NCBI GenBank assembly: GCA_963920765.1
Contig: OY987246.1
Span: 18,534,868-18,598,867 of the forward strand
Direction of reading: 5' to 3'
Length of the DNA stretch: 64,000 bases
Source: Ulota crispa
Lineage: Eukaryota; Streptophyta; Bryopsida; Orthotrichales; Orthotrichaceae
Both the position numbers and the translations under genes were made by a program. Within the stretch, counting starts at the first letter, position 1. Every line of letters begins with the position of its first letter. The notes beneath the pieces are model-generated. The model was not told where the DNA came from. It ran no database searches and worked only from the letters and a program-made list of their open reading frames with translations. Below are positions 1,347 through 62,799 of the stretch, piece after piece.

Positions 1347-4300
1347 ATGGAGAAGACAGGGCGATGGATGCTGGGCATGGTGTACGTCATCGCCGTGGCC
1401 ATCATCTGGGTCATCGCCAGCTTCGTGGTGCAATTCGTCGTCGGTGCAGGCGTCTCCCCCTTTCTCATCACCTATCTCTGCAATTCCATGTTCATCGTGT
1501 ACTTGCCCCTTGTGGAAGGCGGCAAGGTGTTCTGGCAATGGCTTGAACGTCGCCGATTGAACCATCATCACCAACAACAACAACAACATGAGTCGAAATC
1601 CGGTGCGGAGAAGGAGACCGCGTACCTGTTGGAGGATCTTGGTGCTATTGAATCAGAAGCAAACCCCAATTCCGCACACCCTAATTCTGCAAACCCTAAT
1701 TCTGGTTTGGTTAAAGAGCAGGGAGTATTTGAGCTGGCGATTGATGAGAGTTTGATGAGTGCGCCTCAGCCGGTTTCTACTCGAGAGTGGAGCCGACGAG
1801 AAATCGCGCAAGTGAGCTTGCTGATTTGCCCCTTTTGGTTCGTGGCGCAATTCACCTTCAACCTGTCGCTGCGATACACCACTGTCACGGTATGCTTGTT
1901 TCTTTTCCTGCAATCTTTCTAGTAACCTCTGTTTCCACAAATTCTTCCTACTAATTGCGATACTTGCAATTATTAGAAGGGAAAATTTCATGGATACCCC
2001 TGAAATTTGCAATATTCTCATAGATACCCCTACTTTTCAGAAATGGCACAAATACCCTTGGACCAAAATTTCTAAGCGATTGTTTTGTTGTGCTCGCACT
2101 TTCCTCATGACCAATGTTGAAGAAGGGAATGTAATGAAACAAAATAGAAGCAACATGCGCACAAAGGAAGAAGGGAAGTGGTATGCACAACAAAACAAAC
2201 GCCTAATTTTTTTGGTCCAAGGGTATTTGTGTAATTTCTGAAAAAGCAGGGGTATCTATGAAAATATTGCAAACTTCAGGGGTATCCATGAAACGTTCCC
2301 TTGTTAGAATGATCAAGTTTTCTTGAATACTTTTGTTAGAATAGCAAAGAGGATTCTAAACATTGAAGAACGAATTACTTGAATATTATCATATGCAACG
2401 GTTGTAAGAGTTCAAAGTGATGACCTAAAACTAGCACTTCGTTGAGGTGATGGACATGCTCAAAATCAGTATGTACTCATTATGCAAGATTTTTGAGTTC
2501 CTAAACTTAAACTGAAAATTTCATAGAAGGCTCTTGTAACTAGAGACGGCATTGTTCATTTTGCACTCAAAACCATACACTGAGATTTTGTTCTTATTTT
2601 ATAACTAGATTTTCTTAGGGGACGCTTTATTGAAAAGCTACTAAGATATGCTCTCATGAACTATGATATGGCGCTTGTCCAAAATATCGAGATGACAACA
2701 AGTATTAACAATGAGGAAAGTAAATTCCATGAAGAGAAAAAAAAGAAGTTTTGTTATTTTGAGTTTTCTTATCCATTTCTGAGCCAAACTATGAAAGTGA
2801 TAGCTTGTTGGAAAGCTATGAAGGATGTGCTTCTTACCATCCATTATTTGCGTTCTGATTCTTGGTATCCAGATCGCAGCAAACGATTAAAGTTCTCTGT
2901 CTAGGATTTCAAGTGACATTGCTAGGAGATGAGAATTTCTTTGCAAGATTCTTTCCCAACAGAATTTTAGGGTTTTAGGTGCATAAACTGGGGTTATACA
3001 CGAGGGGTTACTTGATGGCTTTTTAAGGGAAAATTTCATGAATACCCCTGAAGTTTGCAATATTTATTTGATACCCCTGCTTTTTCAGATATTTCACAAA
3101 TACCCTTGGACCATAGTTTTCAGGCGGTTGTTTTGTTGTACATGCTATTTCCCTTCTTCCTTTGTGAGTAAGTTTTTTTTTTTTTTTTTCATTACATTCC
3201 TTTCTTCAACAATGGTCATGAAGAAATTACAAGCACAACAAATAAATGCCCAATTTTTTTGCTCCAAAATTATCTATGAAATTTCTGAAAAAGTAGGGGT
3301 ATCTATGAAAATATTACAAACTTCAGGGGTATCCATGAAATTTTCCCATCTTTTAAGATGTAGACTGAATCTGAATACCAGTTGTTGTTGCTGTGCAGTC
3401 GAACACAATTTTGAGCAGCTCATCCAGCCTGTTCACATTCTTGTTTTCGCTGGTCCTGCTAAATGAGCAGTTCAAGTGGTTGAAACTGGTGAGTGTGCTG
3501 TTGTGCATGGTTGGAACCATTGTTGTGACCCTGGCAGATTCAACGGAGGCTGGTGGTTCGTTTAGGAGAGCAGGATGGGGTGATATTCTCTGCTTGTTCT
3601 CTGCTTTGGCCTATGCTCTTTACAGTACCTTGATAAGGAAGCGACTACCTGACGAAGATGCTGGCGAAGGAAAAGCCAGTACAGCCTTGTTTTTCGGATA
3701 CTTAGGCCTTTTCAATGCTCTTTTGCTCGGACCTGTAGCCCTGGTTGTCCACTCCACTGGAGTGGAGCCATTCCATCGGCTGACTCTCTCTCAAGTTGGT
3801 CTCATCGTTGGAAAAGGTGAGCCACTTCTTAACCCTTAAACGACCATAGGGCATAGTATATACGCTGCCATATAATTGGCATTTGCCACCAACAAGAAGT
3901 TTTAATTTGAGATCTCAAATAGCTCACTAGAATTGCATTGATCTATTCTCCAACTTCTTTGTTGGTTTGAAATGTATGAAAGCCGTGAATCCATTCCAAA
4001 TACAAGAAAAATATCTTGTATTGTACTGTGGCACACTCAGAAGTTTAAGGGTTAACTAATCCTATTTCTTAGCCCGCTATTCATTCCTTTCAACACACTC
4101 TCTTACAATGAAAAGTGACATTTCCGAACTCTTTTTTTTTTAAAATTCGTGAAGATATTTTATAGTAAAAGGGTACAAAGAGAAGTTTGATGGTCATGTT
4201 TGTGAAAATAGTGGCTTTCAGAGTGCCTAATTCTGACACAGTCTAATGCTCATTACTCTCATAGCGTGGGTTCTGAAATATATTGAACACATTACCTGTC

Positions 4301-4822
4301 ATTGAAGTATGTGGGATGCTACATTGCATTATCATCAAGCCATTAGAATCTAACTAGATGGATGCAATATGTTCGGTGCTGTAAATACTAGCGCATGCGA
4401 ATAACACTGCAGTACTTATTCTGGATTATGGCCTTCTAATTCTTGTTTTTGTACGACTTTATAAAGTTTTTTGATTCAATTTCTGAGCTGGGGATAGAGT
4501 TATGAGGATTGAAGGAAAGCTGGGGATGTTTGCAGGGCTGCTGGACAACGTGTTGAGCGACTACCTTTGGGCTAAAGCTGTGTTGCTGACGTCGCCAACA
4601 GCAGCAACTACTGGCCTCACCATTCAAGTCCCCATTGCCGGTGTGCTGGATTCGTTGCGAGGGAAGATCCCGCCTCCACTGAGCATTGTAGGTGCTGCTG
4701 CAGTTCTGCTAGGGTTTTTTGGAATCAACGAGCCGGCTATTCGGTGTTTCGGCTCTTCAGAAGAGGATTCTGACGACTTGGATAACCATGTGAAGCAAAG
4801 TACAAACGGTATTATAACGTGA
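1347..4822 (+). CDS. SLC35F5-like drug/metabolite transporter (EamA fold)
   Basis: A multi-pass membrane carrier of the DMT superfamily, SLC35F5-like branch; the plant substrate is not established. Exons are 1347-1889, 3399-3816 and 4536-4822, all with GT-AG borders and continuous phase, giving 415 aa, close to the size of Arabidopsis homologues. The first helix begins at residue 8 (WMLGMVYVIAVAIIW); a Gln/His-rich loop follows near residues 70-85. Exon 1 ends in YTTVT, exon 2 opens with SNTILSSSSSLFTF and exon 3 with GLLDNVLSDYLWAKA, the most conserved blocks of the family. I chose ATG 1347 because homology starts just after it; the frame stays open upstream to 1134, so a longer N terminus is possible. 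Intron 1 carries two copies of one MITE and intron 2 a TTAA element. A Stowaway-like MITE lies just past the stop, probably in the 3' UTR. Confidence 0.92.
1979..2300. mobile_element. Long-TIR MITE, family M1, copy 1 (intron 1)
   Basis: Begins GGGAAAATTTCATGGATACC and ends with its inverted complement (GGGGTATCCATGAAACGTTCCC region). The inverted arms are over 100 bp long, so the transcript of intron 1 could fold into a long hairpin. A second copy lies in the same intron at 3027-3347 and a third at 56280-56841. No transposase coding. Confidence 0.85.
3027..3347. mobile_element. Long-TIR MITE, family M1, copy 2 (intron 1)
   Basis: Same family and orientation as the copy at 1979-2300, with the same termini GGGAAAATTTC / GAAATTTTCCC. 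A poly-T run interrupts the centre. It ends about 50 bp before the acceptor of intron 1. It also preserves the approximate unoccupied form (ACAAATAAATGC) of the site where a TTAA element has inserted in the third copy. Confidence 0.85.
3829..4055. mobile_element. TTAA-flanked MITE, ~230-bp family, copy A (intron 2)
   Basis: TTAA is followed by CCCTTAAACGACC at the left and GTTTAAGGG precedes TTAA at the right. The interior (ATAATTGGCATTTGC, AACTTCTTTGTTG, ACAAGAAAAAT blocks) recurs at 15746-15969 (inverted), 43819-44052, 44049-44294 and 56499-56740. It starts 12 bp past the donor of intron 2 of the transporter. Confidence 0.85.
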
Positions 4823-4845
4823 AGATGTGCTGCTTGCTTGTAACA

Positions 4846-5223
4846 TACTCCCTCCGTCTCAAAATAAGTGACTGAATTGCTTACTTCTCAAAAAATCAAT
4901 GCCAGAAAAAACCAATGCATTTTATATTAGTAGATTCTGCACAACAAGCAGAGTAAAATGGCGCCATTTTCAAGTCCTTTTGGGCTAATGCTGCTATTGA
5001 CAACAAGACGATGAAAGTGAATGGAGGAAACAACCATAACGTGCCACATCTAGGCAAAGGCAAATTGGAGCAAGAAGGGCGACTTCCTTTGAGGTTAGCT
5101 TGTGATTCCACCCTCAGTAATTGTGTTGGTCAACTTGTATTATAGCAATAAAGTAAATAGTTCACTAGTTTTGAGACAAAGCTCCACGCATTGTTATTCA
5201 CTTCTTTTGAGACTGAGGGAGTA
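4846..5223. mobile_element. Stowaway-like MITE
   Basis: TA target duplication with termini CTCCCTCCGTCTCAAAATAA and GAGACTGAGGGAG, the standard plant Stowaway (Tc1/mariner-derived) ends. About 375 bp, non-coding. It starts 24 bp past the stop codon of the transporter gene and probably contributes to its 3' UTR. Confidence 0.9.
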
Positions 5224-5894
5224 AAACAATTGTAGGTTCCCATTCTTTATACTCTCGGGGTGCACGTTGTCATACTACTCCATCTCTGTTATTTGTACAG
5301 GAAAAGTTTTTGTGCGTTAGTTTTGAGGTTAAGTTCTTGTGAGAGGAACAGTTTCCAGTTTAGAAGTTTCAGAAAGCTGAGAGTTTCGAAGCTCAGTCGT
5401 ACAGATAGCCCAGTTTCCAAGTTTGTCATGAATCTTGACTATGTCATGTAAGTTGGTTCTGTTGGAGGACAGTAGCTTGCTTACTTTGTGGTGATTTTAA
5501 CCATGTACAGTTGTATCAAAGAAGCAGATTATGTTAACATCGCTTGAATGAAATTTCTGATTTTACCCTAAGCTTTCTAGGTAATTTGTTATCTCAATGA
5601 TCTTGTATACTACCATACACGGTTTGGTATGCTGCACATACGTGTTTGTGGGGCCAGGGCGGAAAAGCTCAGATTTTTCACCTGACAGAAAATGTTTGAG
5701 TTTGGAAATATCCTACCAGAAGATTGAGTTTGCATATTTTGAATTCATACTTAGATTCAAAGACCCTGATTTATTACAGAGTTGTGGGAAGAGATAAAAC
5801 TGAGCAACTACAAACCCTTGCTTTTCTATCATGTCTTCATAAACTTGTATGTGCAGCATGCCAAGCTACCATACACAAGTTTACTGTTGAACAG
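5224..5894. other. Downstream flank of transporter gene
   Basis: No conserved coding sequence seen; short open frames here lack homology that I recognise. It may include the distal 3' UTR of the transporter. Confidence 0.35.
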
Positions 5895-5976
5895 GTAACC
5901 CCATAACGCCCCAGGGGCGTGAATCGCGCCCCATTTCAGTGTTTTTTTTTGAAAGCTGGGGGCGTTGAGGGGTTAA
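5895..5976. mobile_element. 82-bp TTAA-type mini-element
   Basis: Left end GTAA-CCCCATAACGCCCC, right end GGGGGCGTTGAGGGG-TTAA: near-perfect inverted termini around about 40 bp. The ends match those of the 650-bp elements at 20979-21630 and 39097-39742 (CCYCTCAACGCCC), so it is probably an extreme deletion derivative. The left TTAA has degenerated to GTAA. Confidence 0.7.
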
Positions 5977-6034
5977 GCATTGCGAGTATTTACTGTTATT
6001 GTATTGATGTGAATTCTTTGCTTTTGGATCGTAT

Positions 6035-6400
6035 TTAACCCCTAAATGTTGAGGAGGACAAAAAACGTCCTTTGGCTCTGAAAAAAGATTATGTGATTCA
6101 GAGAAAATCGTTTTTCATCTGATTTTTTTTCAGAAGTGACCATAAACACATGGTCCATCATGGAAGACAAAAAACTACCTCTTGAGATGCATTCATTTTT
6201 TTTGTAACCCAAATTGTGATAAGATTTAGAAATATGGTGTTAGCTCCCAAGCTGCTCTTCTTGCAATTTTCATGAGGGCACCATGCACTATTGACTTTTC
6301 CAACTTTTTGAAGCAATACTACTAATGCCCATGTGCAAAATACTGTAGACTGCTACAAGCAAGGCAAGCCACGGTGATCCATCCATCCTTTAAGGGTTAA
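6035..6400. mobile_element. TTAA-flanked element, ~360-bp family, copy 1
   Basis: TTAA-CCCCTAAATGTTGAGG at the left and CTTTAAGGG-TTAA at the right. The interior includes ACACATGGTCCATCATGGAA and is colinear, in inverted orientation, with 13136-13490. Non-coding. Confidence 0.8.
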
Positions 6401-6649
6401 GAATATTTTAAGACACTATTTTGTGCATTTTTTGGGTATCATATGAATTGGTTATGAATTTTCAAAGTTCAACCTAATATTTTCTAATATTGCATTTTGG
6501 TTTTAACATACATGTTTTGTGCATGAACCACTCTATAAAAAGCCATATAAATGTAATAAAGTGAGATTAATGTGAAGTAAGAGCTCATCTTTTATGAGAG
6601 ATGAATAAAAAAAGTAGAGTCATTAGTTTGCTATTTTCAGGTTAACACA

Positions 6650-7559
6650 TTAACCCTTTAGAGACCACCAAACCAAATTTTGGTTTGGGAGAGTAGTTTT
6701 TGGCTTATATAGTAAAATTGCTCAACAAATTGGAAATTGATCTTGAAGGACGTTTGTGATCACAAATCTTTTGCATCCAACCCAAGAAACGACAATGGAA
6801 TTGGACATTTGAGTTGATAAATAATGGTGTTTATACATCATGGCCTCAAAACACGTATCCATATTTGGTCAAAAATGGATCAAAGCAACAACACAATACA
6901 TCAAACATCTAAGAAGAATGCCACATTTCAATTGTGCAATCTTAAAAAATTTCAAATTGCTTCAGGAATATGCTTGTATTGTTTCTCTATACGGTAGTAG
7001 CACAATTGTAGTATTTGAAGAATCCATTGAAATGTATCTTTTTGTTTATAAAAAAATATATCCTATATTTAAGGCCAATTTTTGATTGCTTTCACTGATC
7101 AGATTTTTTGTAACAGTTATCAAAATTCTTGTAGAACCATTTAGGATAGCAAATAAAATGGGATTTTGACCCTTTTTGTCCACTTAGCTACACCTTGTGA
7201 TTGTTATTTTTGTTTATTTTGTGTGAAACTAGTCTTGTTGGAAAGGTGGGAAACCTTGCTTTCTAGAAATGTAAGGCTCTTCTCAACCAAAGCTTGCATG
7301 AAGTGTTAACATTCAAAACCACACAAGCATGAAAAACTAGAGATTTCCCATATACGACTCACTCAATCATTATAATATTTCACCTCCAAAGGTAGATCTA
7401 GCTGAAATTTGGATATATTACAACAAAAAAGGTCTCCTTCACATTTGTAAGGTTGGATTATTCAAATTGAATCCATATTTGATTCAATTGCACATCTAAT
7501 TTTATTGCCCTTGTTTCTAGTGGATTTTGGGAAAATGGGTGTGATCTTTAAAGGGTTAA
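6650..7559. mobile_element. TTAA-flanked element, ~910-bp family, copy 1
   Basis: Starts TTAA-CCCTTTAGAGACCACC and ends AAAGGG-TTAA. Colinear over its length with 21627-22537 (shared blocks include TCCACTTAGCTACACCTTG and GGAAAGGTGGGAAACCTTGC). No transposase reading frame. Its right TTAA at 7556-7559 is also the left end of the next small element. Confidence 0.8.
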
Positions 7560-7618
7560 TGACCAGGGTTCCAAAAACACACTAGACATCAACCACATTT
7601 TGGTTGCCTGGTCGTTAA
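7556..7618. mobile_element. 63-bp TTAA-flanked palindromic element
   Basis: TTAA-TGACCAGG ... CCTGGTCG-TTAA with a short centre holding AACCACATTTTGGTT. It abuts the 910-bp element and shares one TTAA with it; a further GGGTTAA follows at 7620-7626. It is related to the termini of the 910-bp family (compare ACCATATTTTGGTTG at 21639). Confidence 0.6.
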
Positions 7619-7626
7619 TGGGTTAA

Positions 7627-8620: not shown

Positions 8621-8874
8621 ACGTCCTGGCTCAGATTATCTACAGTAGAACACTAGATGACATGGTACAAATCCAACAACAGGGTAGAACACCGCTGCAT
8701 ATAGATATCTACATTTGGAGGATGTAAAGCACAGATTAAATCAGCTCATTCGGAGCAAGCAACAGGATATCTTTATCATTACCTGAAAATCCAGGATCTT
8801 GGTACATTTCAGCAACACCTAAACTTGTTGGCATGTGGTGCATATATTCCCATAAAAGAAACAAGCAGCTATGC

Positions 8875-9095
8875 TACAAGAGGCTTTGTCCTTGTAGCAT
8901 TGGCTTACTCCATTCTTCAAGTAAGGTACATTCTCAAACTCCCTCAAGGTACCTTTTGCTGATGCAAACACTCCTCCCCTAAAAGGAACCACACTACAAG
9001 AGGCTTTGTCGATGTATCAGTGGCTCGCTTTTCAAGTAATGTACCTAATCAAACTTCCTCAGAAGAGCTTCTGTAAATGCAAGGCCTCCTCCCTT
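8875..9095. repeat. Imperfect ~120-bp tandem duplication
   Basis: Two adjacent copies share ACAAGAGGCTTTGTC (starting near 8876 and 8995), a TAGCATTGGCT/TATCAGTGGCT block, TCAAGTAA-GTACCT and a final GCAAACACTCCTCCC/GCAAGGCCTCCTCCC. It lies downstream of the minus-strand uL24 gene, possibly in its transcribed tail. No reading frame of note. Confidence 0.6.
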
Positions 9096-11653: not shown

Positions 11654-11655
11654 CG

Positions 11656-13135: not shown

Positions 13136-13490
13136 TTGACCCTTAAACGCAAGGCTGGTCACAGTGTAAGGTGGCGCTACGGTTGATAGGTGTCCATTTT
13201 ATTGAGTTGTTTTCAAAAGCTGCAAAAGTCAACAATGTATGCTAAATTTATGAAAATTACAAGAATGGTAGTATGGGATATAACATTGAGTTTCTAAATC
13301 TTCTCATAATTTGAGTTATCAAAAAATATGAATACACTTGATGAGGTTGTACTTTACCTTCCATGATGGACCATGTGTTCAGAATCACTTCTAAAAAAAC
13401 AGCAAATGAAAAACAACGATTTTCTTTTCTACAAAATGTTTTTTTATAACCAAAGGACTACATGCATTTGCCCTGACGTTTAGGGATTAA
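13136..13490. mobile_element. TTAA-type element, ~360-bp family, copy 2 (inverted)
   Basis: Left end TTGA-CCCTTAAACGC, right end GACGTTTAGGGA-TTAA. Its reverse complement is colinear with 6035-6400, sharing ACACATGGTCCATCATGGAA and the flanking oligo-T and AAAATCG blocks. One flanking TTAA has mutated to TTGA. Confidence 0.75.
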
Positions 13491-15745: not shown

Positions 15746-15969
15746 TTAACCCCTAAACATTTGAGCAACCAACACATTATGAGGTGTTTTTCTTGTATTT
15801 GGAATAGATTCACACATTCACTACATTTGAGATCAACAAAGAAGTTGGAGAATATATCAAAACAATTCTAGTAAGCTTCTTGAGATCCCAAATTAAAACT
15901 TCTTATTAGTAGCAAATGCCAATTATACAACAACGTATATACTATGCCCTATGGTCATTTAAGGGTTAA
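15746..15969. mobile_element. TTAA-flanked MITE, ~230-bp family, copy B (inverted)
   Basis: TTAA-CCCCTAAACATTTGAGC and CATTTAAGGG-TTAA. The reverse complement is colinear with copy A at 3829-4055, including the internal TAATTGGCATTTGCTAC and AACTTCTTTGTTGATCTC blocks. Confidence 0.85.
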
Positions 15970-20549: not shown

Positions 20550-20978
20550 GGTCGCGGAGGACGACGACAATGTCAGCTCCAGGGCGTGGCCATGACATTA
20601 ATTAATACAGCTCCGAAACAACAGAACTTCATAGGAGTGTGACCAGTTCTGCATGCACTTGAAGGCAAATCGCAAGCTGGATTGTCGTCGTCAATGCGCA
20701 AAACGAGAGCTCTTGAATTGGTCTTGAACGTGGCGATCCTGCTCTCGAGGTGGCGGGGCTTTTGGGACGAGTGACGGAGAGAGAGTTGAGTGAGAGTGCC
20801 GCGCCTTGGTGGTGGTCCATCGTTCGGGGTCTGCGACCGAGTCTATAGACTCGGTGTGACCGTGACATGAATACTTTTTGGTCCTAAGAGCGTGACCTAA
20901 AAGGACGCTGCAACAGACGGACAGCACGGTTTTTTTTTTTTCATTTTTTAAGAAGTGCCAAAGTGGCGATTTAACCCT

Positions 20979-21630
20979 TTAACCTCTCAACGCCCCTGGA
21001 ATTTTGGAGTATCTTAAAATTTGCTTGAAAATGCATAAAATGTTGACATTTTGATTTATCTTATCAATTTTTTTGAAATGTAACCGTACAAATTCAAAGT
21101 AAACATGTTATAGACTGCATACAAAAAGAAATCACAACTATTTCACTTATGGATTGAAAGATTATAATGTTTGATCATGAGGGTGTTAAAACTGTGAAAG
21201 TGATTTGAAGTCTTTTGATCCTCTTTTTGCATCTCAAATCTAAAATTGAGGGTACCAAAAAAATATGAGTATGTAAAGTACAACATGCATAACCGCAATC
21301 AATTTACAGTTTCTCAAAATCTATTCTACAATTTTTTTAAATGAAATTTTTAATGCAATTTTTTCTCCAAGTTCTAGTGTACTTGAGGCTCATTTCCAAG
21401 AGCCTTCAACACTAGAAAGTGAAGATTTGCAATGGACACCCTTGCGCAAAATCTTGAATAGACAAATCATGTTAATTCATTTTCAAGATTAGAGTCTTGA
21501 TGCTGAAACTAGACTTCAACAACAATTTAGATATAATAATAACCACAAAAAAATATTGAAAAAACTTTGGGAATCCTTGAACAAAATTCACAAGGGCAAA
21601 ATTTTAGCCCCTTGAGAGTTGAGGGGTTAA
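20979..21630. mobile_element. TTAA-flanked element, ~650-bp family, copy 1
   Basis: TTAA-CCTCTCAACGCCCC at the left and GAGAGTTGAGGGG-TTAA at the right. Inverted relative to, and colinear with, 39097-39742. No coding region. Its right TTAA (21627-21630) is shared with the next element. Confidence 0.85.
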
Positions 21631-22537
21631 GGACCATGCGACCATATTTTGGTTGTTGGGAGTGGTTTTTGGACTTTAGGTTGAAATCGCTCAATAATTT
21701 GGAATTTGGTCTTGAAGTACGCACATGAACACAAGAATTTTGCATTCATCTAAAAAAATAACAATGCAATTGGATATGTGCGTTGATAAATAATGGTGTT
21801 TATACGGCATGGCTTCAAAATACGTATTCATTTTTTTTTGTCAAAGACGAATCAAAGCAACAACGCAATACATCAAGTATGCAAGAAGAATGTCAAATTT
21901 AATTCAATTGCACAATTCTATAAAATTTCAAATTGCTTAAGAAATACGTTTGTATTGTTTTCCTATACAATAGTAGTGTAATTGTAATATTTGAAGATCT
22001 ACTAAAATGGTGTTGTCATTTTGGCTTTAAAATTTGTCCTCATATATTTAAGGCCGATTCTTGATTGTTTTCACCAATTGGATTTTCTAAAATAATTATC
22101 AAATTTCTTGTAGAACCGTTTTAGGGTAGCAAAGAAAGTGGGTTTTTGACCCTTTTGTCCACTTAGCTACACCTTGTGATTGCTATTTTTGTCTATATTA
22201 TGTGAAACTAGTTTTGTTGGAAAGGTGGGAAACCTTGCTTTCTAGAAATGTAAGGCTCTTCTCAATCAAAGCTTGCATGAAAGGTTAACATTCAAAACTA
22301 AACAAGAATGAAACACAAGAGATTTTTCGCATACGGCTCGCTCAATCACTATAATATTTCACCTCCAACAGTAGATCTAGCTGAAATTTTGGCGCTTTAC
22401 AATAAACAAGGCGTACTTCCCATTTGTACGGTTGGATTATTGAAAATGGGTCCATATTTGAGTCAATTCCAAAACTAAGCTTATAGCCTCTATTTTCAGT
22501 GGATTCTATGAAAATGGATGTGTTGTTAAAGGGTTAA
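21627..22537. mobile_element. TTAA-flanked element, ~910-bp family, copy 2
   Basis: Begins TTAA-GGACCATGCGACC and ends TTAAAGGG-TTAA. Colinear with 6650-7559. It stands end to end with the 650-bp element, with a single TTAA between them. Confidence 0.75.
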
Positions 22538-31686: not shown

Positions 31687-31689
31687 GAA

Positions 31690-32265
31690 CTCTTATATTC
31701 TAGATCTCATAAACAAGAAGTCTAGTGACTAATGCTTAAATAGATATCTTGAAAAAAGAAGGAAAAAAAAAAAGATTCTTAAAGAAGGATTCAGAAAACA
31801 ATTTTTTTTAAAGTGAAAATTTTAATTCAATATTATAATATGATGTTCCCAAAATTCCCAATGATGTTTCCAAAGTTCCCAATGATGTTCTCAAAGTTCT
31901 CAAAGTTCCCAATGATGTTCAAAAAGTTCCTAAAGTGCCCAAAGATGTTTCCAAAGTTCCCAATAATGTTCCCAAAATTCCTAATGATGTTCCCAAAATT
32001 CCCGATGATGTTCCCAAAATTCTTGTTGATGTTCCCAAAATTCCTGTTGATGTTCCCAAAATTCCCAATGATGTTCCCAAAATTCCCAATGATGTTCCCA
32101 AAGTTCCCAAAGTTTCCAAAATTTGCAGTCTTGGGCCCAGTGGCTTTATACATGGTTGGGTTGGTTGCATGGCTTGGAGCTGGATTGAAAGCCAAAAGGG
32201 CCCTAAATCGGGCCAACCCTCAATTCGTCCCAGCCCCAAGTATAAACTGGCCCTATCGTCAGCAC
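31690..32265. repeat. Minisatellite-bearing repeat, copy 1
   Basis: A 21-bp unit (TTCCCAAAATTCCCAATGATG) repeats about 12 times at 31844-32110 with small variations. The flank after it (TTTATACATGGTTGGGTTG, GCTTGGAGCTG-ATTGAA, CCCCAAGTATAAAC) matches the minisatellite-containing TIR element at 54795-55485. Because the unit length is a multiple of three, long frames stay open on both strands; I do not regard them as genes. Confidence 0.7.
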
Positions 32266-32322
32266 ACCGACATGGTTGGTATACACCAAAAAACAAAAGA
32301 AGATTAAATATTCAAGTGCTAA

Positions 32323-32972
32323 TGTTGGCATTGTGCGTGTTCTAAGCTTAAGTAGTAAACTTAGTAAGTTAGTAACTTAATTAGCTCTTTGATAGACACT
32401 TGTGTTGAGATAAGTATTAGTACGCTCTCCTTTAAGGTAGGAGCACCCCATAAGCGTGAGTTTAAGGGTTTTGAACATGATGATTATAAATTGACGTCTA
32501 GAAAATGATAGGATCCTATTAGCAACTGAAAAATAGTGGGTTTATACTTTCGAACTTATGATTTAGATACTATGAGAATAAGTTGTGAATTTTTAAAGAA
32601 CAAAGTGCCATTGTACCCATAACCACTATTAAGATTTTGTATTCACTTGTTGTACATCCTTGTCATTACATCTATCTACTTCCACAAATTTTTCAAAATT
32701 TTAGAGGTCACGCTTATGGAGACCCTCACGACAATGGGTGCTCATACCTAGTTAGTTAGAGGTTACTATAGTAATGGATTCCCATGGACCAATAGTAGAT
32801 AAGGACTTTTACTTTATAATGAACCAATAGTAGAGAAGAACTTGCATTTTATATCCTCTCTCTTTAGTATATATATGGACAACTACTTGAAATAAGATAT
32901 CTTGTTATTCCTTTCTCCTTCCATACATTGATTACATCTCTTTTGTGTCTTTGTTGTGTTTTCTATTCCCAA
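32323..32972. mobile_element. Possible LTR remnant holding a MITE
   Basis: The stretch opens TGTTGGCATTG and closes TTCTATTCCCAACA, with a TATATATA box near 32870, which resembles an LTR interrupted by the MITE at 32433-32751. I see no target duplication and no partner LTR or coding region. A chance resemblance or an isolated LTR fossil are both possible. Confidence 0.35.
32433..32751. mobile_element. TA-flanked MITE, AGGTAGG family, short type, copy 2
   Basis: TA-AGGTAGGAGCACCCCATAAGC left and ATGGGTGCTCATACCT right. Colinear with 22838-23152, sharing GGGTTTTGAACATGATGA and ACATCCTTGTCATTACATCT. The right TA has changed to AG. Confidence 0.85.
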
Positions 32973-39096: not shown

Positions 39097-39742
39097 TTAA
39101 CCCCTCAACGCCCGAGGGGCTGAACCCCTCTGAATTTTGTGCAGGGATATCAAAAGTTTTTTGAAGATTTTTTGTGTGATTATTATTATATCTAAATTGT
39201 TGTTGAAGTTTAGTTTCAGCATCAAGACTCTGATCTTGAAAATGAATTAACATGATTTGTCTATTCAAGATTTTGCACAAGGGTGTCCATTGCAAATCTT
39301 CACTTTCTAGTGTTGAAAACTCTTGGAAATGAGCTTCAAGTACATTAGAACTTGGAGAAAAAATTGCATTAAAAATTCATTTAAAAAATTGTAGAATAGA
39401 TTTTGAGAAGCCGTAAATTGATTGCGGTTATGCATGTTGTACTTTACATACTCATATTTTTTTGGTACCCTCAATTTTAGGTTTGAGATGCAAAAAGAGG
39501 ATAGAAAGACTTCGAATCACTTTCACAATTTTAACACCCTCATGATCAAACATTATAATCTTTCAATCCATAAGTGAAATAGTTGTGATTTCTTTTTGTA
39601 TGCAATCTATAACATGTCTACTTTGAATTTGTACGGTTGCATTTCAAAGAAACTTGATAAAATTGATCAAAATGCCAGCATTTTGTTCACTTTCAAGCAA
39701 ATTTTGAGATACTCCAAAATTCCAGGGGCGTTGAGGGGTTAA
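39097..39742. mobile_element. TTAA-flanked element, ~650-bp family, copy 2
   Basis: TTAA-CCCCTCAACGCCCG at the left, GGGGCGTTGAGGGG-TTAA at the right, both TTAA intact. Inverted and colinear with 20979-21630 (TTAACATGATTTGTCTATTC, AACATGTCTACTTTGAATTT region). It interrupts the linker part of the MCTP pseudogene. Confidence 0.9.
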
Positions 39743-42944: not shown

Positions 42945-43023
42945 TTAACCTCTAAATGACCAAAGCATCAAAGTATAGTGTGTAGAACACAAAAATTTGG
43001 TGCCTTTGGCATTTAGGGGTTAA
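42945..43023. mobile_element. 79-bp TTAA-flanked mini-element
   Basis: TTAA-CCTCTAAATGACCAAAG ... CTTTGGCATTTAGGGG-TTAA: 17 bp of near-perfect inverted repeat on each side of a ~35-bp centre. It is the smallest element in the window with both ends well preserved. Confidence 0.8.
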
Positions 43024-43818: not shown

Positions 43819-44052
43819 TTAACCCTTGAACAACGAAGCTACTAAAATACATATTGTATAAGTTACTGTATAATTAGCATTTACTACCAACAAAAAGTTT
43901 TAATTTGGGATCTTGATTCTTGAATACCTCACTAGAACAACATTGATCTATATTCTCACTTCTTTGTTGATCTCAAATGTAATAAAGGTGTAGATGCACT
44001 CCAAACACAAGAAAAGTACTCCATATTGTACTAGTCACAAAGGGTTGCTTAA
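43819..44052. mobile_element. TTAA-flanked MITE, ~230-bp family, copy C (right end short)
   Basis: Left end TTAA-CCCTTGAACAACG intact. At the right, the sequence stops at GGGTTGC-TTAA, lacking the last ~12 bp present in copies D and E. Copy D begins at that same TTAA. Confidence 0.75.
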
Positions 44053-44294
44053 CCCTTGAACAACCAAGCTACTATAATACATATTGTATACACTACTATA
44101 TAATTGGCATTTGCTACCAATGAAAAGTTTTAATTTGGGATCTTGATTCTTGACTACCTCACTAGAACATTGATCTATATTCTAACTTCTTTGTTGATCT
44201 CAAATGTAATAAAGATGTGGATGCACTCCAAATACAAGAAAAATACTTGATATTGTACTGATCGCAAAGGGCTGCTTGGTCGTTGAAGGGTGAA
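44049..44294. mobile_element. TTAA-flanked MITE, ~230-bp family, copy D
   Basis: TTAA-CCCTTGAACAACC left; right end GGTCGTTGAAGGG followed by TGAA, a mutated TTAA. It stands head to tail with copy C and is about 90% identical to it by eye, sharing one TTAA with it. Confidence 0.8.
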
Positions 44295-54678: not shown

Positions 54679-54794
54679 TATTGTGAAAACTACAAAGATG
54701 TGTCCAAAGTACTATAATAAAAAATTACAAAATTTCTTTTTGATACACTCAAATAAGTTTCAAATTAAAATCACTTTGTTGGCTTGCTTGCTCA

Positions 54795-55485: not shown

Positions 55486-56279
55486 ATCCTGTATTCTTTG
55501 TGTACACGAAATATCTCTACAACTAATCAATATTGTTATGAAATTTTGAAACTTGACAATAATCACAAATGCATTCTCCTTTATTTACTTGGTAATAAGA
55601 AAAGAGGCTTGAGTTTACAATTTTGAATTCTCACTTGACTTACAAGCGAGCATCTCAACATCTTCCCAATTAAGGTACCACATCTAAATTCATCCAAATC
55701 AGCATCTATATATGGTTCATGTTATTCAACCATTTCGGATTGTTTGGTCTTTTGGCAATAGAAAAAAGATTCTGAAACATCATTGCATGTAGTCTTTTGC
55801 CAAGTGTTCAAGTAGGTTTGATACTCCAAAAGTGTTAGTTATTGTTGTACACAAAACTGACCTCAATCTCTTATATTCAAAAGGTGTACATTTTATAATT
55901 GAAGTGATAATTTGTAGCTAGAAATTTGCAAAATTGTAATTACGTGTGATTTCCATATACTTATCAAACAAACAAAGTATAAATGTTGATTATCAAAACA
56001 TACAATAAATATCCATAGATAGAGTAAAGAATACTCAAGTGCCTCTACCTACAACAACAAATAAGTGTTGTTGTTAGACCTTATATAAGCTTTCACAATA
56101 ATCAAGGAAAATGAAACTGGTTTGATTATGCAAAGACACCCCTATAACATCTATCACTAATTCTGTATTTAAATGAAAAACAAATTTTAACAACAAACAT
56201 GTAACATGGGTCATAAACACTAACATTAAATGTATACCACTCTACTAATGTTATGAACAATTGACACCAATTAAAACAA
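55486..56279. other. Unassigned AT-rich sequence
   Basis: No gene, RNA or element termini recognised. Confidence 0.35.
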
Positions 56280-56841
56280 GGGAAAATTTCATGGATATTC
56301 TTGAAGTTTGCAATATTTTCAAAGATACCCCTTGCTTTTTCAGAAATTTCACAAATGCCCTTGGACCAAAATTTTCGAGCATTTGTTTTGTTGTGCGTGT
56401 TACTTCCTTTCTTCCTTTATGCGCACATTGCTTCTTTATTGTTTCATTACATTCTCTTCTTCAATATTGGTCATGAATGAAAGTACAAGCATAACAAATT
56501 AACCCTTAAAGGACAAGGCTACTACAATATATAGTATGTACGTTGGTGTATAATTGGTATTTGCTACCAACAAAATGTTTTAATTTGGAATCTTGACTAC
56601 CTCACTAGAACAACATTGATCTATATTCTAACTTCTTTGTTGATCTCAAATGTAATAAAGGTGTGGATGCACTCCAAATACAAGAAAAATACACCGTAGT
56701 GTACTGGTCGCAAAGGGCTGCCTCGTCCTTTAGGGGTTAATGCTTGAAAACTATGGTCCAAGGGTAATTGTGAAATTTCTGGAAAAGCAAGGGTATCTAT
56801 GAAAATATTGCAAACTTCAGGGGGATCCATTGAATTTTCCC
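56280..56841. mobile_element. Long-TIR MITE, family M1, copy 3, with a nested TTAA element
   Basis: GGGAAAATTTCATGGATATT ... AATTTTCCC, as the intronic copies at 1979 and 3027. Its centre is interrupted at 56499-56740 by a TTAA element. With that removed the remaining ~325 bp align end to end with copy 2. Confidence 0.9.
56499..56740. mobile_element. TTAA-flanked MITE, ~230-bp family, copy E (nested)
   Basis: TTAA-CCCTTAAAGGACAAGG left, CGTCCTTTAGGGG-TTAA right. It lies inside a family M1 MITE. The flanks read ACAAA-TTAA ... TTAA-TGC, whereas the sister M1 copy near 3240 reads ACAAATAAATGC, so only TTAA was duplicated on insertion. Confidence 0.93.
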
Positions 56842-58380
56842 TTAAAAGAAACTATCAACAATTGAACACATTTGAACAATATAACTTAGCTTGAAAAATA
56901 GATTTATTACAAACGAGAGTAACATTGCAAAATTGGATGACTCAAGAAAATGTAAATCTATATCTGCATTCAAAATGTGTTCAAGCCCAATTATTTTAGG
57001 AAAAAAACGTGAAGCAACTCTAATAAGCAAAATCTATTAGCCAATTTCAACTCTCCTACACTGAACTCATCTAGTAATAGATAATGTAGTATTACAGTTC
57101 CATGTTGTTCAAGCCAATATGGTTCAATGTTCCTCCTACATAAAATTAGTCATACTTTTAAATTTGTAAATATCAATTCCTTACATTTGAGGATCCTAAT
57201 TCTAGTGGCAAGAGTGCATCAAGTAGAATACACTATCTCAACTTATCAGCATGTTACAAGGAACCAAAAAAGGCAGGAGAAAAGAGAAATGGTTAGTTTT
57301 TATGCAATAAAGTTTCAATGTGTCTAGATATTCTTTAGTCTGCAGGCACCCAACCAACCCTTGGCCTTGGTGCCCTTAGAACGCCCTCTAATCCAAGAAA
57401 TTTACTATACAAAATCACATTCATAGCAATAGATCTGGATGAATGAAATGTTACGTTACAATTTTCCTTATTAAGACCTTATCCTTTAACTTGTATTGCA
57501 CACACCCGTATCTATAAAATAAATTCTAAAATACTTCAATCCAAGAGTTGAGCTTCACTAGGTCCACTTCAACCATTGGAAGATTCACCTGTAATCTTCA
57601 GTGCAAAACCTCCTAAATCCACAAGTCTAGTTTTCAAAAGAATACGACAATGGTATCCACCAATATATTATACATAAAGGCGTAAAGTTCAATACCACAT
57701 ATCAATTACATATGAAGGGATAATCATAAACAACCCATTTAAGATAAGCTATATTTTAAGCACCAACCATTCGCTTTAAAGTCTTTCTATTTCAAAGGTT
57801 AATTTCCCAGGCTCCACATTTAAGTACATAATTCCTGAACCTATCAACACAAACATCCAAATAGAATAAAGATCATTTTAAACAATCACTGTTCTCCTAA
57901 TTCCCAAAAGTTTCTGACAATCTCAAAAACTGAGCTCCGAATCACCCATGTCCATTTCGATCAGCAATTGCAAGTACCGACAATAACCAATGCAGATTCT
58001 CATCAAGCTTGGAGAGCATATATTACATTCCCACACACCGAAGAGTGACTATAACAATTTTTACATCCAACTGATGAACACATAATAGAGAAAAATAGGG
58101 TATTTTACAGCAAAGTATGGCACAAAGTGACTAACTACAGTAGTGATTATACAGGGCTGCTTCGTCTAAAGACTATAAACTCCATCTCAGCTCCAAAGCT
58201 ATCAGTTGGAATTAGGTCCTTCCAGTGTATTTTAACACTTTGTCAATTAAGTTCTGTACTTCAGCAGATTCAAGGTCGGCCCCCTTATTTGCCCCTACAG
58301 ACTTAATGGAGAGGCACCTAAACAATGAGTCTTCCAAAATTTACATGTTGAGCAACAGCCAGACGATGTCGACCAAATTT
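56842..58380. other. Unassigned AT-rich sequence
   Basis: No conserved gene or bounded element recognised over 1.5 kb downstream of the DsbA-like gene. Confidence 0.35.
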
Positions 58381-58384
58381 GAAC

Positions 58385-58890
58385 AATACCCTAAGCCCCA
58401 AGCTATAGATAAATTAAGCCCTAAGCGCGATTGCAAGTCGCAAAACCCAAAATCCTCAACCCAAACCATGGACATGAGCGCAATTGCAAGTTGCAAAATC
58501 CTAAACCCTAAGTTATGGACATGGAAAACCTGCGCGCGATTGCAGATCGCAAACCCTAAACTTGAGCTATGGACATGGAGTCCTAAGCGAGATTTGAAGT
58601 CGCAAAACCCTAAACCCCAAACCCCAAGCTATGGACCTTGAGCGCAATTGCAAGTCGCAAATACCGTAAGCCCTAAACCCCTAGCTAGGGACCTGGAAAC
58701 CTGAGCGCAACTGCAAGTCGCTAAATCCTAAACCCGAGCAATGGACATGGAAACCCTGAGTACGATTGCAAGTAGCAAAACCCTAAATCCACATCTCCAA
58801 GCCATGGACATGTCACCCTGAGCATGATTGCAAGTCGCAAAACCCTAAACCCTAAGCTATGGACACGGAAACCCTAAGCGCGATTTGCAA
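58385..58890. repeat. ~60-bp minisatellite with telomere-like motifs
   Basis: About eight degenerate units built from AAGCTATGGACATGGAAACC, CTGAGCGCGATTGCAAGTCG and CAAAACCCTAAACCC. CCCTAAA occurs inside each unit but never as a pure telomeric run. The array ends within 10 bp of the DsbA-like stop codon, so it makes up the gene's 3' UTR or abuts it. Confidence 0.8.
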
Positions 58891-58898
58891 GAGTACCT

Positions 58899-59606
58899 TC
58901 AGGGGCACCCGTCCGTCGTGCACGCGCCGTTCGGCGTCGCACCAGCGTCGGCTTCGGATTGCCGGAGCTTGGCGGCCACGTCAAACGCTTCAAGGAAAGC
59001 CTCGGGAGGCTGAGCACCGGAGATCTGGAACCGTCCGTCAATAACAAAATGGGGCACACCGGAAACGCCACGGCGGAACTTCCGCTCCGCATCCAAAACC
59101 TGCTTCAACCCGGCCTGCGGGTCCTCCAGAAACCCTCTTGCTCCGTCCACGCCAACCTTGTCCGCAGCCGCGACCAAAACCTCGCGATCCCCGATATACT
59201 TCTCCTGCGTAAAGAAATTCACGAACAGCTCCTCCACGAGGGCATTCTGGCTCTCCAGCCCTTGCCTCCCGGCGTACTCGATCAACCGATGACTGTCCAA
59301 GGTACTCCCCGTCTCGCCCCCCATGGAATACTTGTACCCTAACTTCGCAAAGGCGCCTCCGACTCTGTCGAGGATCGGCTGCATCCTGCCCTCGCCGAAC
59401 TTGGATTTGTAATATTCTTTCTTGTTCACTCCTTGCATGGGAGCGTCGGGGTTCAAGAAGAACGGGTGCCATTTCACCTCGACGGCGTACTGGTCCTTGG
59501 TCGCGGCTATGGCTTGCTCCAAATGCTTCTTCCCGATGAAGCACCAGGGACATACCGTGTCCGACGTCACGTCCACTCGGATCACCTTCTTCGCCATCGC
59601 TGCCAT
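58899..59606 (-). CDS. DsbA/FrnE-like thioredoxin-fold oxidoreductase
   Basis: A single exon of 235 aa in the DsbA-like FrnE/2-hydroxychromene-2-carboxylate isomerase family, the same group as Arabidopsis At5g38900 (about 217 aa); the physiological substrate is not established. After MAAMAKKVIRVDVTSDTVCP the active site reads CPWC (residues 20-23), followed by FIGKKHLEQAI. Further family blocks are HPFFLNPDAPMQGVNKKEY, LDSHRLIEYAGRQG, VEELFVNFFTQEKYIGDREV and, near residue 189, the cis-proline loop SGVPHFVIDGRFQISGAQPPE. No signal peptide is evident, so it is probably cytosolic. ATG 59606 is preferred to the in-frame ATG at 59597. The gene is much more GC-rich than its surroundings. A minisatellite touches its 3' end and another lies about 340 bp upstream of the start. 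Confidence 0.93.
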   Translation of the reverse strand: MAAMAKKVIRVDVTSDTVCPWCFIGKKHLEQAIAATKDQYAVEVKWHPFFLNPDAPMQGVNKKEYYKSKFGEGRMQPILDRVGGAFAKLGYKYSMGGETGSTLDSHRLIEYAGRQGLESQNALVEELFVNFFTQEKYIGDREVLVAAADKVGVDGARGFLEDPQAGLKQVLDAERKFRRGVSGVPHFVIDGRFQISGAQPPEAFLEAFDVAAKLRQSEADAGATPNGACTTDGCP

Positions 59607-59947
59607 CAACTTCGTCGTCCTCCCCGCTTTGCTGGCTCCGGCAATCTAACTCTTTAGGGTTTGGCCTCTTTGGGCTTGGGTTTGCTAAATAGCGATTGAA
59701 ATACGGCAATTTTGCTGAAATTCGGCAAGTTTGAGCGAGTGTGAGAGATTGCGTGACCGAATTGGGTTGGTGATTGCAGCAGATGAGAGCAATTTATAGC
59801 CGTGAGGGAATGGCGATGGTCGGAAAGTGAGAGCGAAGGTCGGGCGGGATTCTGGTTGATTTCAATGGCGGCCTTCGGTCGAACCATCCTGCCTTTCAAT
59901 GAATTCTAATGACATCGTTCGTGGAGTATTTGAGGTGGAGTAGATGA
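59607..59947 (-). promoter_or_regulatory. 5' leader/promoter of the DsbA-like gene
   Basis: Position and raised GC content suggest promoter and 5' UTR of the minus-strand gene. On the minus strand a TATAAATT box lies at about 59794-59801, which would place transcription start some 150-170 bp before the ATG. Confidence 0.4.
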
Positions 59948-60064
59948 TTTTCGTTGATCGGACGACGTTTGGAATTTTCGTTGGTCGGACGACGTTTGGA
60001 ATTTTCGTTGGTCGGACGACGTTTGGAATTTTCGTTGGTCGGACGACTTTTGGAATTTTCGCCG
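59948..60064. repeat. 27-bp minisatellite, four to five copies
   Basis: Unit TTGGAATTTTCGTTGGTCGG plus ACGACGT, four full copies and a partial one. The unit is nine codons, so a minus-strand frame over it reads NENSKRRPT repeatedly; no other support for a protein. Confidence 0.8.
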
Positions 60065-60361
60065 AGGACTTCGTGGCTCAGTAATGGTTGAACTAGTTTA
60101 TTCACCCATTGAACCAACTGGTTGACCACAGGGTTTTTTTTTCTGGCTGCACCCAGCCAGATTCGTTTTTTTTATATTCTATTTCTTCCAATGCATCTGC
60201 GTCCCTCTACAATTCTTCCAATCCTGCACAAACACTGAGGCTTCTTCTTGTTCACCTACAATGCCAAAAATACAACCCTAGCTGAGCCTGGTGATCCCTT
60301 CCCCTTATCTCTCTATCCACGTGCCCCTCTATCCCTGTTTTCCTTAAATATCCCCATGCCC

Positions 60362-60610
60362 TTAACCCCTAAGTGCCCCAGGATCTCAAAATGGGGAGCT
60401 CAGCTTTGAAAAATGTTCAGGTTTGATTCTTATCCTCTTCTTAATGGTAAAGTCTAAGGACTTGTACTTTTTCATGTACTTTTAGGCATGTGTCTACTAC
60501 CACTCAAAAAAAATTCAAGCTATTTGACTCTACTTAGGTAATAATTTTATTGGACTAAGTACACAAGGGTATGGATTTGAGTGAATATGGCATGGGTGCT
60601 CAAGGGTCAA
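60362..60610. mobile_element. TTAA-type element, ~248-bp family, copy 1
   Basis: TTAA-CCCCTAAGTGCCCC left; right end GGGTGCTCAAGGG followed by TCAA, a mutated TTAA. The right half (ATTTTATTGGACTAAGT, GTGAATATGG) is colinear with 62554-62799. It is followed by three copies of AAATATCCCCGTGCCCCTT at about 60609-60665. Confidence 0.7.
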
Positions 60611-60953
60611 ATATCCCCGTGCCCCTTAAATATCCCCGTGCCCCTTAAATATCCCCGTGCCTTTAATGTCCATGGCCCCCATCTCCATGCCCCCATCCCC
60701 ATAATTTGGTTACAGAATCCCATGCACTCACATTCCCACAATTTGATTACAAAACCCCATGCAATCACATTCTCATGATTCGGTTACGGATTTGTTGTCC
60801 TTAGGTATGGAATTGTCTAGGAGTACCACCAAGGACACTTTTAAGGTGTATTCTATTATATTTATAGTGGCTTAGTAATAGTTGGATGAGTGCGCGGAAA
60901 TTTCTTTGGTATCTGCATATTCTAAATGGCATCTGCTTATTTTGAATGAAAAG

Positions 60954-61388
60954 TAAGGTAGGAGCACCTATAAGCATGAAACTAAGGGTTTTGGGGTAGG
61001 AAAATCAAGTGATGAGCTTTGAAAAAAATAGTGTGGAGTTAGGATGAAGAGGAAATGAAAATATTGGTATCAATTTAAAAGTTCTAATTGCAAGAATTTC
61101 TTCACAAAGATTTTTCAAAGTTTTGAATCATGAATAATGTAAAGTTTTGTGTAGGGGATTTCTTCAGAGTGCTCATGTGCTCATAATACTAACTTGAGGA
61201 GTTCTCAAATAGTGAATGGGCCACCCAAAATTGTCATGCTAGTCACCCAAAACTGTCATGCTAGTCACCCAAAACCATTACTTTGTCACCCATAATCATA
61301 TATTTTTTTAATTGTCAATCATTGACATCGTTGACACAAGTAGGTATTGGGGATGGGGACACTAATGGTGAGAGATGCTCCTACCTTA
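60954..61388. mobile_element. TA-flanked MITE, AGGTAGG family, copy 3
   Basis: TA-AGGTAGGAGCACCTATAAGC left, AGATGCTCCTACCT-TA right, both TA intact. It starts like the short-type copies (CTAAGGGTTTTG) but is 435 bp long; CACCCAAAA-TGTCATGCTAGT is repeated inside at 61215-61275. Confidence 0.8.
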
Positions 61389-61649
61389 TACAATTGATGC
61401 TTGGGCCCACTTTCAAATTCTTTCAAACCTTCAAAAACAAGTGATCTTCAAAGGTTCAAAGGGTGGTTCACAATACGCCTTGCATTCAGTCAACATCCTA
61501 TTGATAATGAAGAATCCTATTGATTAAGAGCCAAAAGTTGGGATTTGGCAGTTTATTCTAAGCCTCAAGTCTCATGTCCTAATTGGCTGCATTTTGTTTA
61601 GGCGGTAGCACTTTTTGAAAGTTTTGGAGATAAGAAAGTGAGACTTCAC

Positions 61650-62557
61650 TTAACCCCTAAATGCCAAGGCACCCAATTTGGGTGTTCAAAAAACTTCAAG
61701 AAACTTTGAAACCCTATTGAAGGTACAGATTTTATCATTTTCAGGTTCTTTTTTTTGGAAAAGTTGTGCGCTCTAGTTAGCTCCACCGTTCAAATTCAAC
61801 TTTCTCTATATCTTATTCCAATTGTTTTTGGTGGAAAGTTAACTACAAGCATACATTTTGTGACATGAATAGTGTTGTGAATAGTGTCACAGAGCCTATG
61901 AGAAGTTGCCACATTGAAAAGGCAGGCATCAAGTTGAGCAAAAGGTGAAGATTTCGTTTGGGCACTCCCTCGGGCAATAAGGGCATTTTTATCAAAATTT
62001 TGACATCTAACAAAATCTAAAAAGTGCTTTTGGACTAATTTCACTTGGAATGTCTTTGTTATGAAAATTCAAATCCTTTCATCGTTGAAAATTCTTTCAT
62101 TCATAATGATTTTTGGTCAATAATTGGAGCTGAAATATTATTTGTATTAGATGGTTGCATTTTGACAATTGCGTTGCAAGCTCATTTGTGAAATTGTGGT
62201 CATGGATTTGGAACGGAGGCCATTGATTTTGAAGTAACAACAATAAACACTAAAGCAATCTAAGCGGTTGTTTTCCAATTTTGTATGTAGAAGTTGTCAA
62301 TTTGCATTAGAAGTTTTGGGCAGCTCCAAAAAAAGCAAAAAATTCTATTCTCATCATCATTCAATTGCAAATATCTTAAAATCCACAGAGCCATTTTGGA
62401 TTCTTTTTGAGTAGCGCCATCTAGAAGTCTTGAAGTTCAAGATTCAACAATTACAATTTTATTTTGATGTTTAATAATAATCTTACAAGGACAAATCAAT
62501 AACTTCAAAACTACCTTCCAAAAACAAGAAAAACACCCTTGGGCATTTAGGGGTTAA
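61650..62557. mobile_element. TTAA-flanked element, 908 bp
   Basis: TTAA-CCCCTAAATGCCAAGGC left and CTTGGGCATTTAGGGG-TTAA right: 14-bp termini like those of the 79-bp element at 42945. It has no transposase frame. The right TTAA is also the left TTAA of the following element. Confidence 0.85.
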
Positions 62558-62799
62558 CCCCTGACTCCCCAGCAACCAAATTCTGGTCACTTTGAATTTT
62601 AAAAAATCCTCTTTGATTGTTATAATTTTTGATTGGCATAGTCAAAACATTTGTCCTTTCTCCCATACCTTAGGGCTTGGCTCCATTTCCTATCGATACA
62701 CTCAATTTCTATGAATCTAGTTTTTGGTAACAATTTAATTGGAATGAGTTTGTATAAGTCTGGATTTTAGTGAATACGGGTTGGGCACTTAGAGGTTAA
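62554..62799. mobile_element. TTAA-flanked element, ~248-bp family, copy 2
   Basis: TTAA-CCCCTGACTCCCCAGC left, GGGCACTTAGAGG-TTAA right. Colinear in its right half with 60362-60610. It abuts the 908-bp element with one shared TTAA. Confidence 0.75.

Follow-up and report, generated by a model that had tools for sequence, protein, structure and literature searches.

The window analyzed here, a 64,000-nucleotide stretch on contig C5 of the moss Ulota crispa (assembly of 274.8 Mb in 157 contigs), contains 17 miniature inverted-repeat transposable elements (MITEs) that begin with TTAA-CCY, end with RGG-TTAA and occupy 6,598 bp (10.3%) of the sequence. We annotated them from the sequence read at all 16 coordinates at which an earlier note on this DNA had placed the starts of at least fifteen such elements, and we grouped them by blastn. 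Fifteen of the 16 starts held, whereas 21627 proved to be the right-hand TTAA of an element nested at 20979-21630. Altogether 33 ends were annotated, the right end of the element at 43819 having been lost. The same note had counted about eight unrelated interior families; several distinct families were indeed present, but blastn gave approximately seven, some of them related (Table 1). The two members of family E were 66% alike, the element at 5895 stood alone, and the newly found 79-bp element at 6642 was left out of this comparison. We conclude that these elements are almost certainly non-autonomous piggyBac transposons of a moss. The basis for this conclusion is their common ends, a 4-bp TTAA duplication, many dispersed copies, a piggyBac-type transposase within elements that have the same ends, and the descent of family F.

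The 33 annotated ends had the consensus TTAA-CCCYTNAAYGMCC, and 29 of them read exactly TTAA. Conservation set in sharply at the TTAA and waned inward: each position of TTAACCC carried 1.03-2.2 bits and the outer positions -12 to -1 at most 0.30 bits; the ends were picked by inspection, so that the inner values are partly built in and the outer values are not. One of the 33 rows of this profile (13491) lay one base out of register, its true TTAA being at 13487-13490. The termini followed the consensus CCCYT, with CC at the start of 31 rows (the exceptions were 6642 and the misregistered 13491) and with C, T and A as the fourth base after TTAA in 17, 14 and 2 ends, respectively. The elements thus have the short inverted termini beginning with CCY(T) by which piggyBac transposons are recognized. 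The one-base decay suspected at some ends was found in the GTAA of the element at 5895 and the TTGA of that at 13136.

The window had 34 single TTAACCY sites, and 60 order-3 Markov shuffles averaged 15.3 and never exceeded 23. At an enrichment of only about twofold, the single motif proves little; a looser scan with one mismatch was also noisy, with 17-32 matches in the shuffles. Two sites were taken as a convergent pair when they lay 60-1000 bp apart and agreed in six or more of the following 10 bases. There were 10 such TTAACCY pairs, two of them with a common left end at 6650, and none was found for each of the 15 other palindromic tetramers or in the 60 shuffles. It is the paired inverted ends, rather than single motifs, that carry the evidence for elements beyond chance. 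At the scale of the genome, the exact 17-mer CCCCTAAATGCCCAAGG from the end of family F occurred 2,520 times, and its reversed control did not occur (0 genome-wide). TTAA directly preceded 2,118 of these occurrences (84%) and NTAA 2,215 (88%), and this count is independent of TTAA, unlike the sample of copies described below.

Because TTAA is palindromic, we examined empty sites. When the nested element at 20979-21630 was removed, leaving one TTAA, the rejoined sequence aligned TTAA to TTAA with its paralog at 6650-7559 (80%). The element at 60362-60610 was placed exactly at the TTAA of a 19-bp minisatellite unit, with one TTAA copy now reading TCAA. For the element at 56499-56740, three paralogous foldback stretches in the window lacked the insertion and had, by eye, one 4-base unit in place of TTAA...TTAA. 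Elsewhere in the genome, TTAA flanked both sides of 19 of 20 copies of family A, 10 of 10 of family C and 9 of 10 of family F (38 of 40 in all), a predominance of TTAA duplications being what the earlier note had named as support for its claim; this sample, drawn from near the top of score-ranked lists obtained with queries starting with TTAA, favours well-kept copies. The two exceptions read TTAG/TTAA and ATAA/ATAA. The latter (C7:16756422-16757328), being non-palindromic, reveals a 4-bp duplication in direct orientation; its left end was placed in register by our reading of L071, where the match ended one base short. The TTAA target-site duplication (TSD) that characterizes piggyBac was therefore observed, and the 3-bp TWA duplication of PIF/Harbinger (Tourist) elements was not.

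Elements were also found in pairs that share a single TTAA, as at C3:26210632-26212456; 790 genome sites matched TNAGGGG-TTAA-CCCCTNA. Approximately 8 of the 40 sampled copies abutted another end. We did not retain a special affinity for the ends of other elements as an explanation, since TTAA targeting at random, in a genome as crowded as this, could give roughly the same result: element ends make up about 7-8% of the 398 TTAA in the window, and later arrivals may abut either end.

A six-frame search of the whole genome with PF13843 (Pfam name DDE_Tnp_1_7), which we take to be the piggyBac domain, revealed the piggyBac-like transposase that the earlier note had expected elsewhere in this genome. 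From 528 first-look candidates, 120 matches were obtained at 116 scored places on contigs C1-C11 (best E 1.3e-73), some of which resembled local duplicates (e.g., C7:18203169 and C7:18223004); no PF13843 match was found in 14 control genomes. An open 476-aa frame at locus L018 matched PF13843 (E 8e-60) as well as the structures 6x67 (Transposase; E 4.1e-20), presumably that of Trichoplusia ni piggyBac, and 9c0f (piggyBat transposase; E 5.8e-17), which relates the moss proteins in sequence to structurally solved piggyBac transposases. Three DDD-type motifs were aligned in 14 sequences, the L018 copy having Asn at the third; simple patterns recovered the first, second and third motif in 9, 12 and 10 of 18 domains, respectively, and some of the misses may be the fault of the pattern. 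The C-terminal cysteine-rich domain expected of a piggyBac transposase was present as a motif, typically C-x2-C-x7-C-x2-C-x5-C, approximately 60-70 residues past the domain in 12 of 20 loci, a count made with no random control in which 2 of the 12 contain a stop and a misplaced match at L018 is excluded. L018 itself has a decayed cysteine-rich motif in another frame. A search for this transposase clade in named genomes returned 16 homologues and then 27, none of them from a source with an organism name; it depends on shared 5-residue words, so that absence from named proteomes is weak evidence. At L021 (G000:C1:1176300-1186200), a PF13843 gene lies in two open stretches in different frames (4350-4844 and 5112-6041) with no accepted TTAA-CCC ends nearby; it may be a transposase with an intron or a gene domesticated from piggyBac.

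To locate the elements that carry these genes, we scanned 9.9-kb stretches around 20 transposase loci for TTAA-CC end pairs. Candidate pairs were accepted at 12 loci, although the left end at L018 was later found to be a family B MITE; the pairs proposed for L015, L017, L019, L021, L024, L025, L027 and L028 were not accepted. We relied on copies, because in the presence of dense MITEs an end pair near a gene is weak evidence. The different loci L009 and L023 formed a single alignment of 5,029 positions (90%) that ended within 1 bp of TTAA on both sides, and a third copy on C8 matched the whole 5,027 bp at 88%, giving three full-length 5.0-kb copies of one transposase lineage with ends TTAA-CCC. 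At L013, the matches to four other loci began at the first or third position of the candidate left end, and no other copy extended to the right end. The element at L012 (5,746 bp) had both ends confirmed by its derivatives: many genome copies matched only positions 1 to approximately 554 and approximately 5612 to 5746, and no second full-length copy was found among the matches listed. A PF13843 DDD transposase thus lies within elements that have these ends, which the earlier note had named as support for its claim, with TTAA-CCC termini established for two element types by copy-to-copy alignment or derived MITEs.

The L012 element also provided a direct link to the window. The MITE at 61650-62557 aligned with its positions 554-1 at 84% and 5746-5633 at 77%, with the left 554 bp and the right 114 bp in common. 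On this alignment, the L012-type transposase element is the parent type of the 908-bp MITE, directly linking a MITE to piggyBac. The 79-bp element at 42945-43023 has 37 terminal bases in common with the L012 element (86%). Family F was the only one in which a non-coding derivative of an autonomous piggyBac element, the definition of a piggyBac-type MITE, was found. No Pfam match over the cut-off that would indicate transposase remnants was found in three longer MITE stretches (21627-22537, 61650-62557 and 39097-39742; 18 six-frame translations with stops as X).

Table 1. TTAA-flanked elements of the window (coordinates from the first nucleotide of the window)
Element	Position	Strand	Basis
MITE, family A, 227 bp, TTAA...TTAA	3829..4055	+	sequence, blastn
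82-bp MITE, left TSD decayed to GTAA	5895..5976	.	sequence
MITE, family D, 366 bp	6035..6400	+	blastn
~79-bp MITE (6642-6653 + 7560-7626), interrupted by 6650-7559 at the inner TTAA of its terminal repeat	6642..7626	.	terminal repeats 18/20 identical, by eye
MITE, family B, 910 bp, uninterrupted paralog of 20971-22537	6650..7559	+	blastn, alignment
MITE, family D, decayed ends (TTGA; TTAA-TCCC)	13136..13490	-	blastn; right end placed by eye
MITE, family A	15746..15969	-	blastn
MITE, family B (20971-20982 + 21631-22537), interrupted by 20979-21630	20971..22537	+	rejoined sequence aligned with 6650-7559, 80%
MITE, family C, 652 bp, nested; target duplication TTAA 20979-20982 and 21627-21630	20979..21630	-	blastn, alignment
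MITE, family C, 646 bp; at least 40 genome copies, 10/10 sampled with flanking TTAA	39097..39742	+	blastn, genome search
79-bp MITE, family F-like ends	42945..43023	+	blastn
MITE, family A, lacks its right end; 44049 element follows head-to-tail	43819..44048	+	blastn
MITE, family A, right TSD decayed	44049..44294	+	blastn
MITE, family A, inside foldback repeat (arms 56278-56383 / 56739-56843), paralogs without insertion	56499..56740	+	sequence, blastn
MITE, family E, at TTAA of 19-bp minisatellite; right TSD decayed to TCAA	60362..60610	+	sequence
MITE, family F, 908 bp, internal-deletion derivative of the element type at G000:C5:10867266-10873011 (5,746 bp)	61650..62557	+	alignment
MITE, family E, TTAA 62554-62557 common with preceding element	62554..62799	+	blastn

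Apart from the MITEs, the window contains a family of foldback repeats whose inverted arms are long (1969-3347 and 56278-56843). Its copies at 1969-3347 lie between two open stretches of an SLC35F/EamA-like gene (approximately 1107-3839) and are perhaps intronic. A 21-bp tandem repeat at 31839-32345 has 13 copies and is open in at least two frames (e.g., MFPKFPM... repeats).

Each of the four MITE families queried had at least 40 scored copies, from 2,410 to 4,703 first-look candidates. The best 40 copies were 92-94% identical to the window element in family C, 91-94% in family A (56499), 88-93% in family F and 88-91% in family B; these are the most similar copies, and the family averages are lower. 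Most of the activity is not recent, because the best MITE copies are 88-94% and the full-length 5-kb copies 90% and 88% identical. Among 49 stops in 18 domain copies (L009-L028), 25 were TAG, 16 TGA and 8 TAA, a spectrum uncorrected for base composition that suggests C-to-T changes in CAG and CGA, such as the decay of methylated CHG and CG sites would produce.

The earlier note had also proposed that one transposition chemistry mobilizes many cargoes. Instead of one transposase, the genome has several lineages that diverge from one another and differ in their terminus variants. A tree built from 18 domains together with 7 environmental relatives and no animal sequences, with some weak joins, resolved L009/L010/L014/L019/L022/L023/L024/L025 (support 1.000), L013/L018/L027 (1.000), L011/L012/L016 (0.956) and L015/L017/L028 (0.917), with L026 beside the last group at 0.074. 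We compared the termini of the MITEs with those of the transposase elements over 17 positions, with no null computed and with 43819, 13136, the nested 20971 and the 79-bp 6642 unscored. Family F was nearest to L012 (16/17), family C to L022 (14-15) and the element at 5895 to L022 (14). Family A was nearest to L013 (12-15/17, with two of the four members tied with others) and family E to L012 or L010 (14 and 13). Ties were obtained for family B between L013 and L020 (12/17) and for family D between L012 and L020 (12). These comparisons suggest that the different MITE families are probably driven by several transposase lineages that live together in this genome and have terminus variants of their own. 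We consider this a better reading than a single transposase for many cargoes, the relationship being proven, by common subterminal sequence, for family F alone.

The transposases and the MITEs might instead be unrelated co-residents, with another TTAA-targeting superfamily moving the MITEs. Sola3, for example, has a preference for TTAA, and families A to E resemble the transposase elements in their termini alone. Family F, however, arose by deletion from a type of element that bears the transposase, and the termini of families A to E fit the same consensus; although Sola and Kolobok transposases were not searched for, we regard this explanation as very unlikely. It is still more improbable that Kolobok elements made these MITEs. 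Kolobok also duplicates TTAA and has been reported from chlorophyte and red algae (PMC9587614), and TTAA duplication alone is therefore insufficient to define piggyBac, for which the earlier note had invoked it together with CCY termini; however, Kolobok termini are 5'-RR...YY-3' in the excerpted description (PMC9587614), as opposed to the CC start in 31 of our 33 rows. Moreover, the transposases bounded by such termini are piggyBac-type.

PIF/Harbinger (Tourist-like) MITEs are common in plants, and their 3-bp TWA duplication could in principle be misread as TTAA. A 3-bp duplication would not produce TTAA-CC...GG-TTAA at both ends or the direct 4-bp ATAA/ATAA duplication on C7, and the transposase within such ends is piggyBac-type (Harbinger transposases were not searched for), which makes this origin scarcely conceivable. 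Contamination of the assembly by animal DNA, which might be suspected because piggyBac is typical of animals, is equally far-fetched, given that the transposase matches are spread over contigs C1-C11, that the MITEs of the window lie among plant genes, and that the DSBA-like gene of the window is closest, among named sources, to moss proteins. These were from Ceratodon (81% and 75%) and Physcomitrium (79%), followed by the liverwort Calypogeia (64%), with three entries (83%) outside the named sources ranking above Ceratodon; the plant host assumed by the earlier note could thus be specified as a moss.

Several observations weigh against the interpretation of these elements as piggyBac MITEs. 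Many ends start with CCCC and not with the textbook CCYT, and no movement was observed. Stop codons interrupt 110 of the 120 transposase matches, and the simple patterns recovered the full set of three DDD-type motifs in no more than 4 of 18 domain translations, one of which carries Asn in the third motif. There was no convincing end pair around 9 of the 20 transposase loci (the 8 unaccepted ones and L018). Parentage through subterminal sequence was found for family F only; families A to E are tied to transposase elements by terminus likeness, with best matches of 12-15 of 17 positions, several ties and no null.

By analogy with the way in which piggyBac is known to move, a DDD transposase that carries a cysteine-rich domain at its C terminus would have bound the terminal repeats, excised the elements via hairpin ends and joined them to staggered TTAA targets, with TTAA duplicated each time. 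Several divergent transposase lineages would have been active in parallel, every one of them recognizing a particular terminus variant and giving rise to particular MITE families, and most of the copies now seen would be old and broken.

The piggyBac transposase is of a kind well known from insects and vertebrates; to our knowledge, piggyBac is generally held to be missing from, or negligible in, land plants. The earlier statement that it is hardly described there is correct insofar as we found repeat-table entries only, but such entries already exist: 1,230 PiggyBac repeats (approximately 0.1 Mb) in the fern Ceratopteris (PMC6890710) and traces in two flowering plants, namely Metrosideros, with a figure of 201 or 0.0001% (PMC13084152), and Brassica, with 1-2 PiggyBac matches per species in WOX genes (PMC6482515). 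These repeats bear the same label as the moss elements and, in the excerpted tables, are lines without termini, duplications or transposases. A review names PiggyBac among plant superfamilies, the relevant excerpt giving no case (PMC10794571), and a methods paper on Physcomitrella presents animal (insect) piggyBac as a tool untried in that moss, its excerpt making no mention of native copies (PMC5505980). Families of piggyBac have been listed for a haptophyte alga (PMC5963040), and the scope of iMITEdb is insects (PMC5199201). Two further candidate mentions contained merely the English words piggybacking or piggyback (PMC10619864 and PMC4729789). In the part of the literature matches on mosses, bryophytes, land plants, plant genomes and Viridiplantae that was read, mostly outside subscription journals, no paper described piggyBac elements native to a moss.

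The moss elements resemble the piggyBac superfamily (Trichoplusia ni piggyBac and piggyBat) in their TTAA duplication, CC-rich short inverted termini, PF13843-type DDD transposase and C-terminal cysteine-rich motif; they differ in their land-plant host, in their weak sequence likeness to the animal enzymes and in their many CCCC termini. In a survey of animal piggyBacs, the first three bases were usually CCC, the best-conserved motif was CCCTT and other TSDs were rare (PMC10813416), and both TTAA and ATAA have been given as piggyBac duplications (PMC8634313). The CMITEs of corals (PMC2872659) are likewise non-autonomous, with TTAA, CC[C/T]T ends, several families per genome and tandem arrays, and cross-mobilization has been proposed for them. 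They reside in an animal host, and their interiors are described as well conserved and their ends as less so, whereas in the moss the interiors differ and the ends are alike. At 43819-44294, two family A copies lie head to tail, the first without its last bases, like the tandem MITE arrays of corals. Kolobok has the TTAA duplication in common with the moss elements and differs by its RR/YY termini (PMC9587614) and another transposase.

The chemistry is ordinary, and the host and scale are unexpected: piggyBac MITEs and a transposase complement in a land plant represent a known system at high density in an unexpected host. We tentatively propose, as a possibility that falls somewhat short of probable, that at least one moss has piggyBac as a native DNA-transposon class, and a dominant one, with several deep transposase lineages, poorly related to animal piggyBacs, that have long been co-resident with their own termini and MITE families. 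If so, mosses would be a second major home of piggyBac beside animals. With more than 100 transposase places, full-length elements and MITEs in approximately one-tenth of the window, TTAA-targeting MITE radiations are not confined to animals, and surveys of plant transposable elements centred on the usual superfamilies may mislabel or overlook piggyBac-type MITEs. The co-evolution of transposases and termini can be studied here inside one genome.

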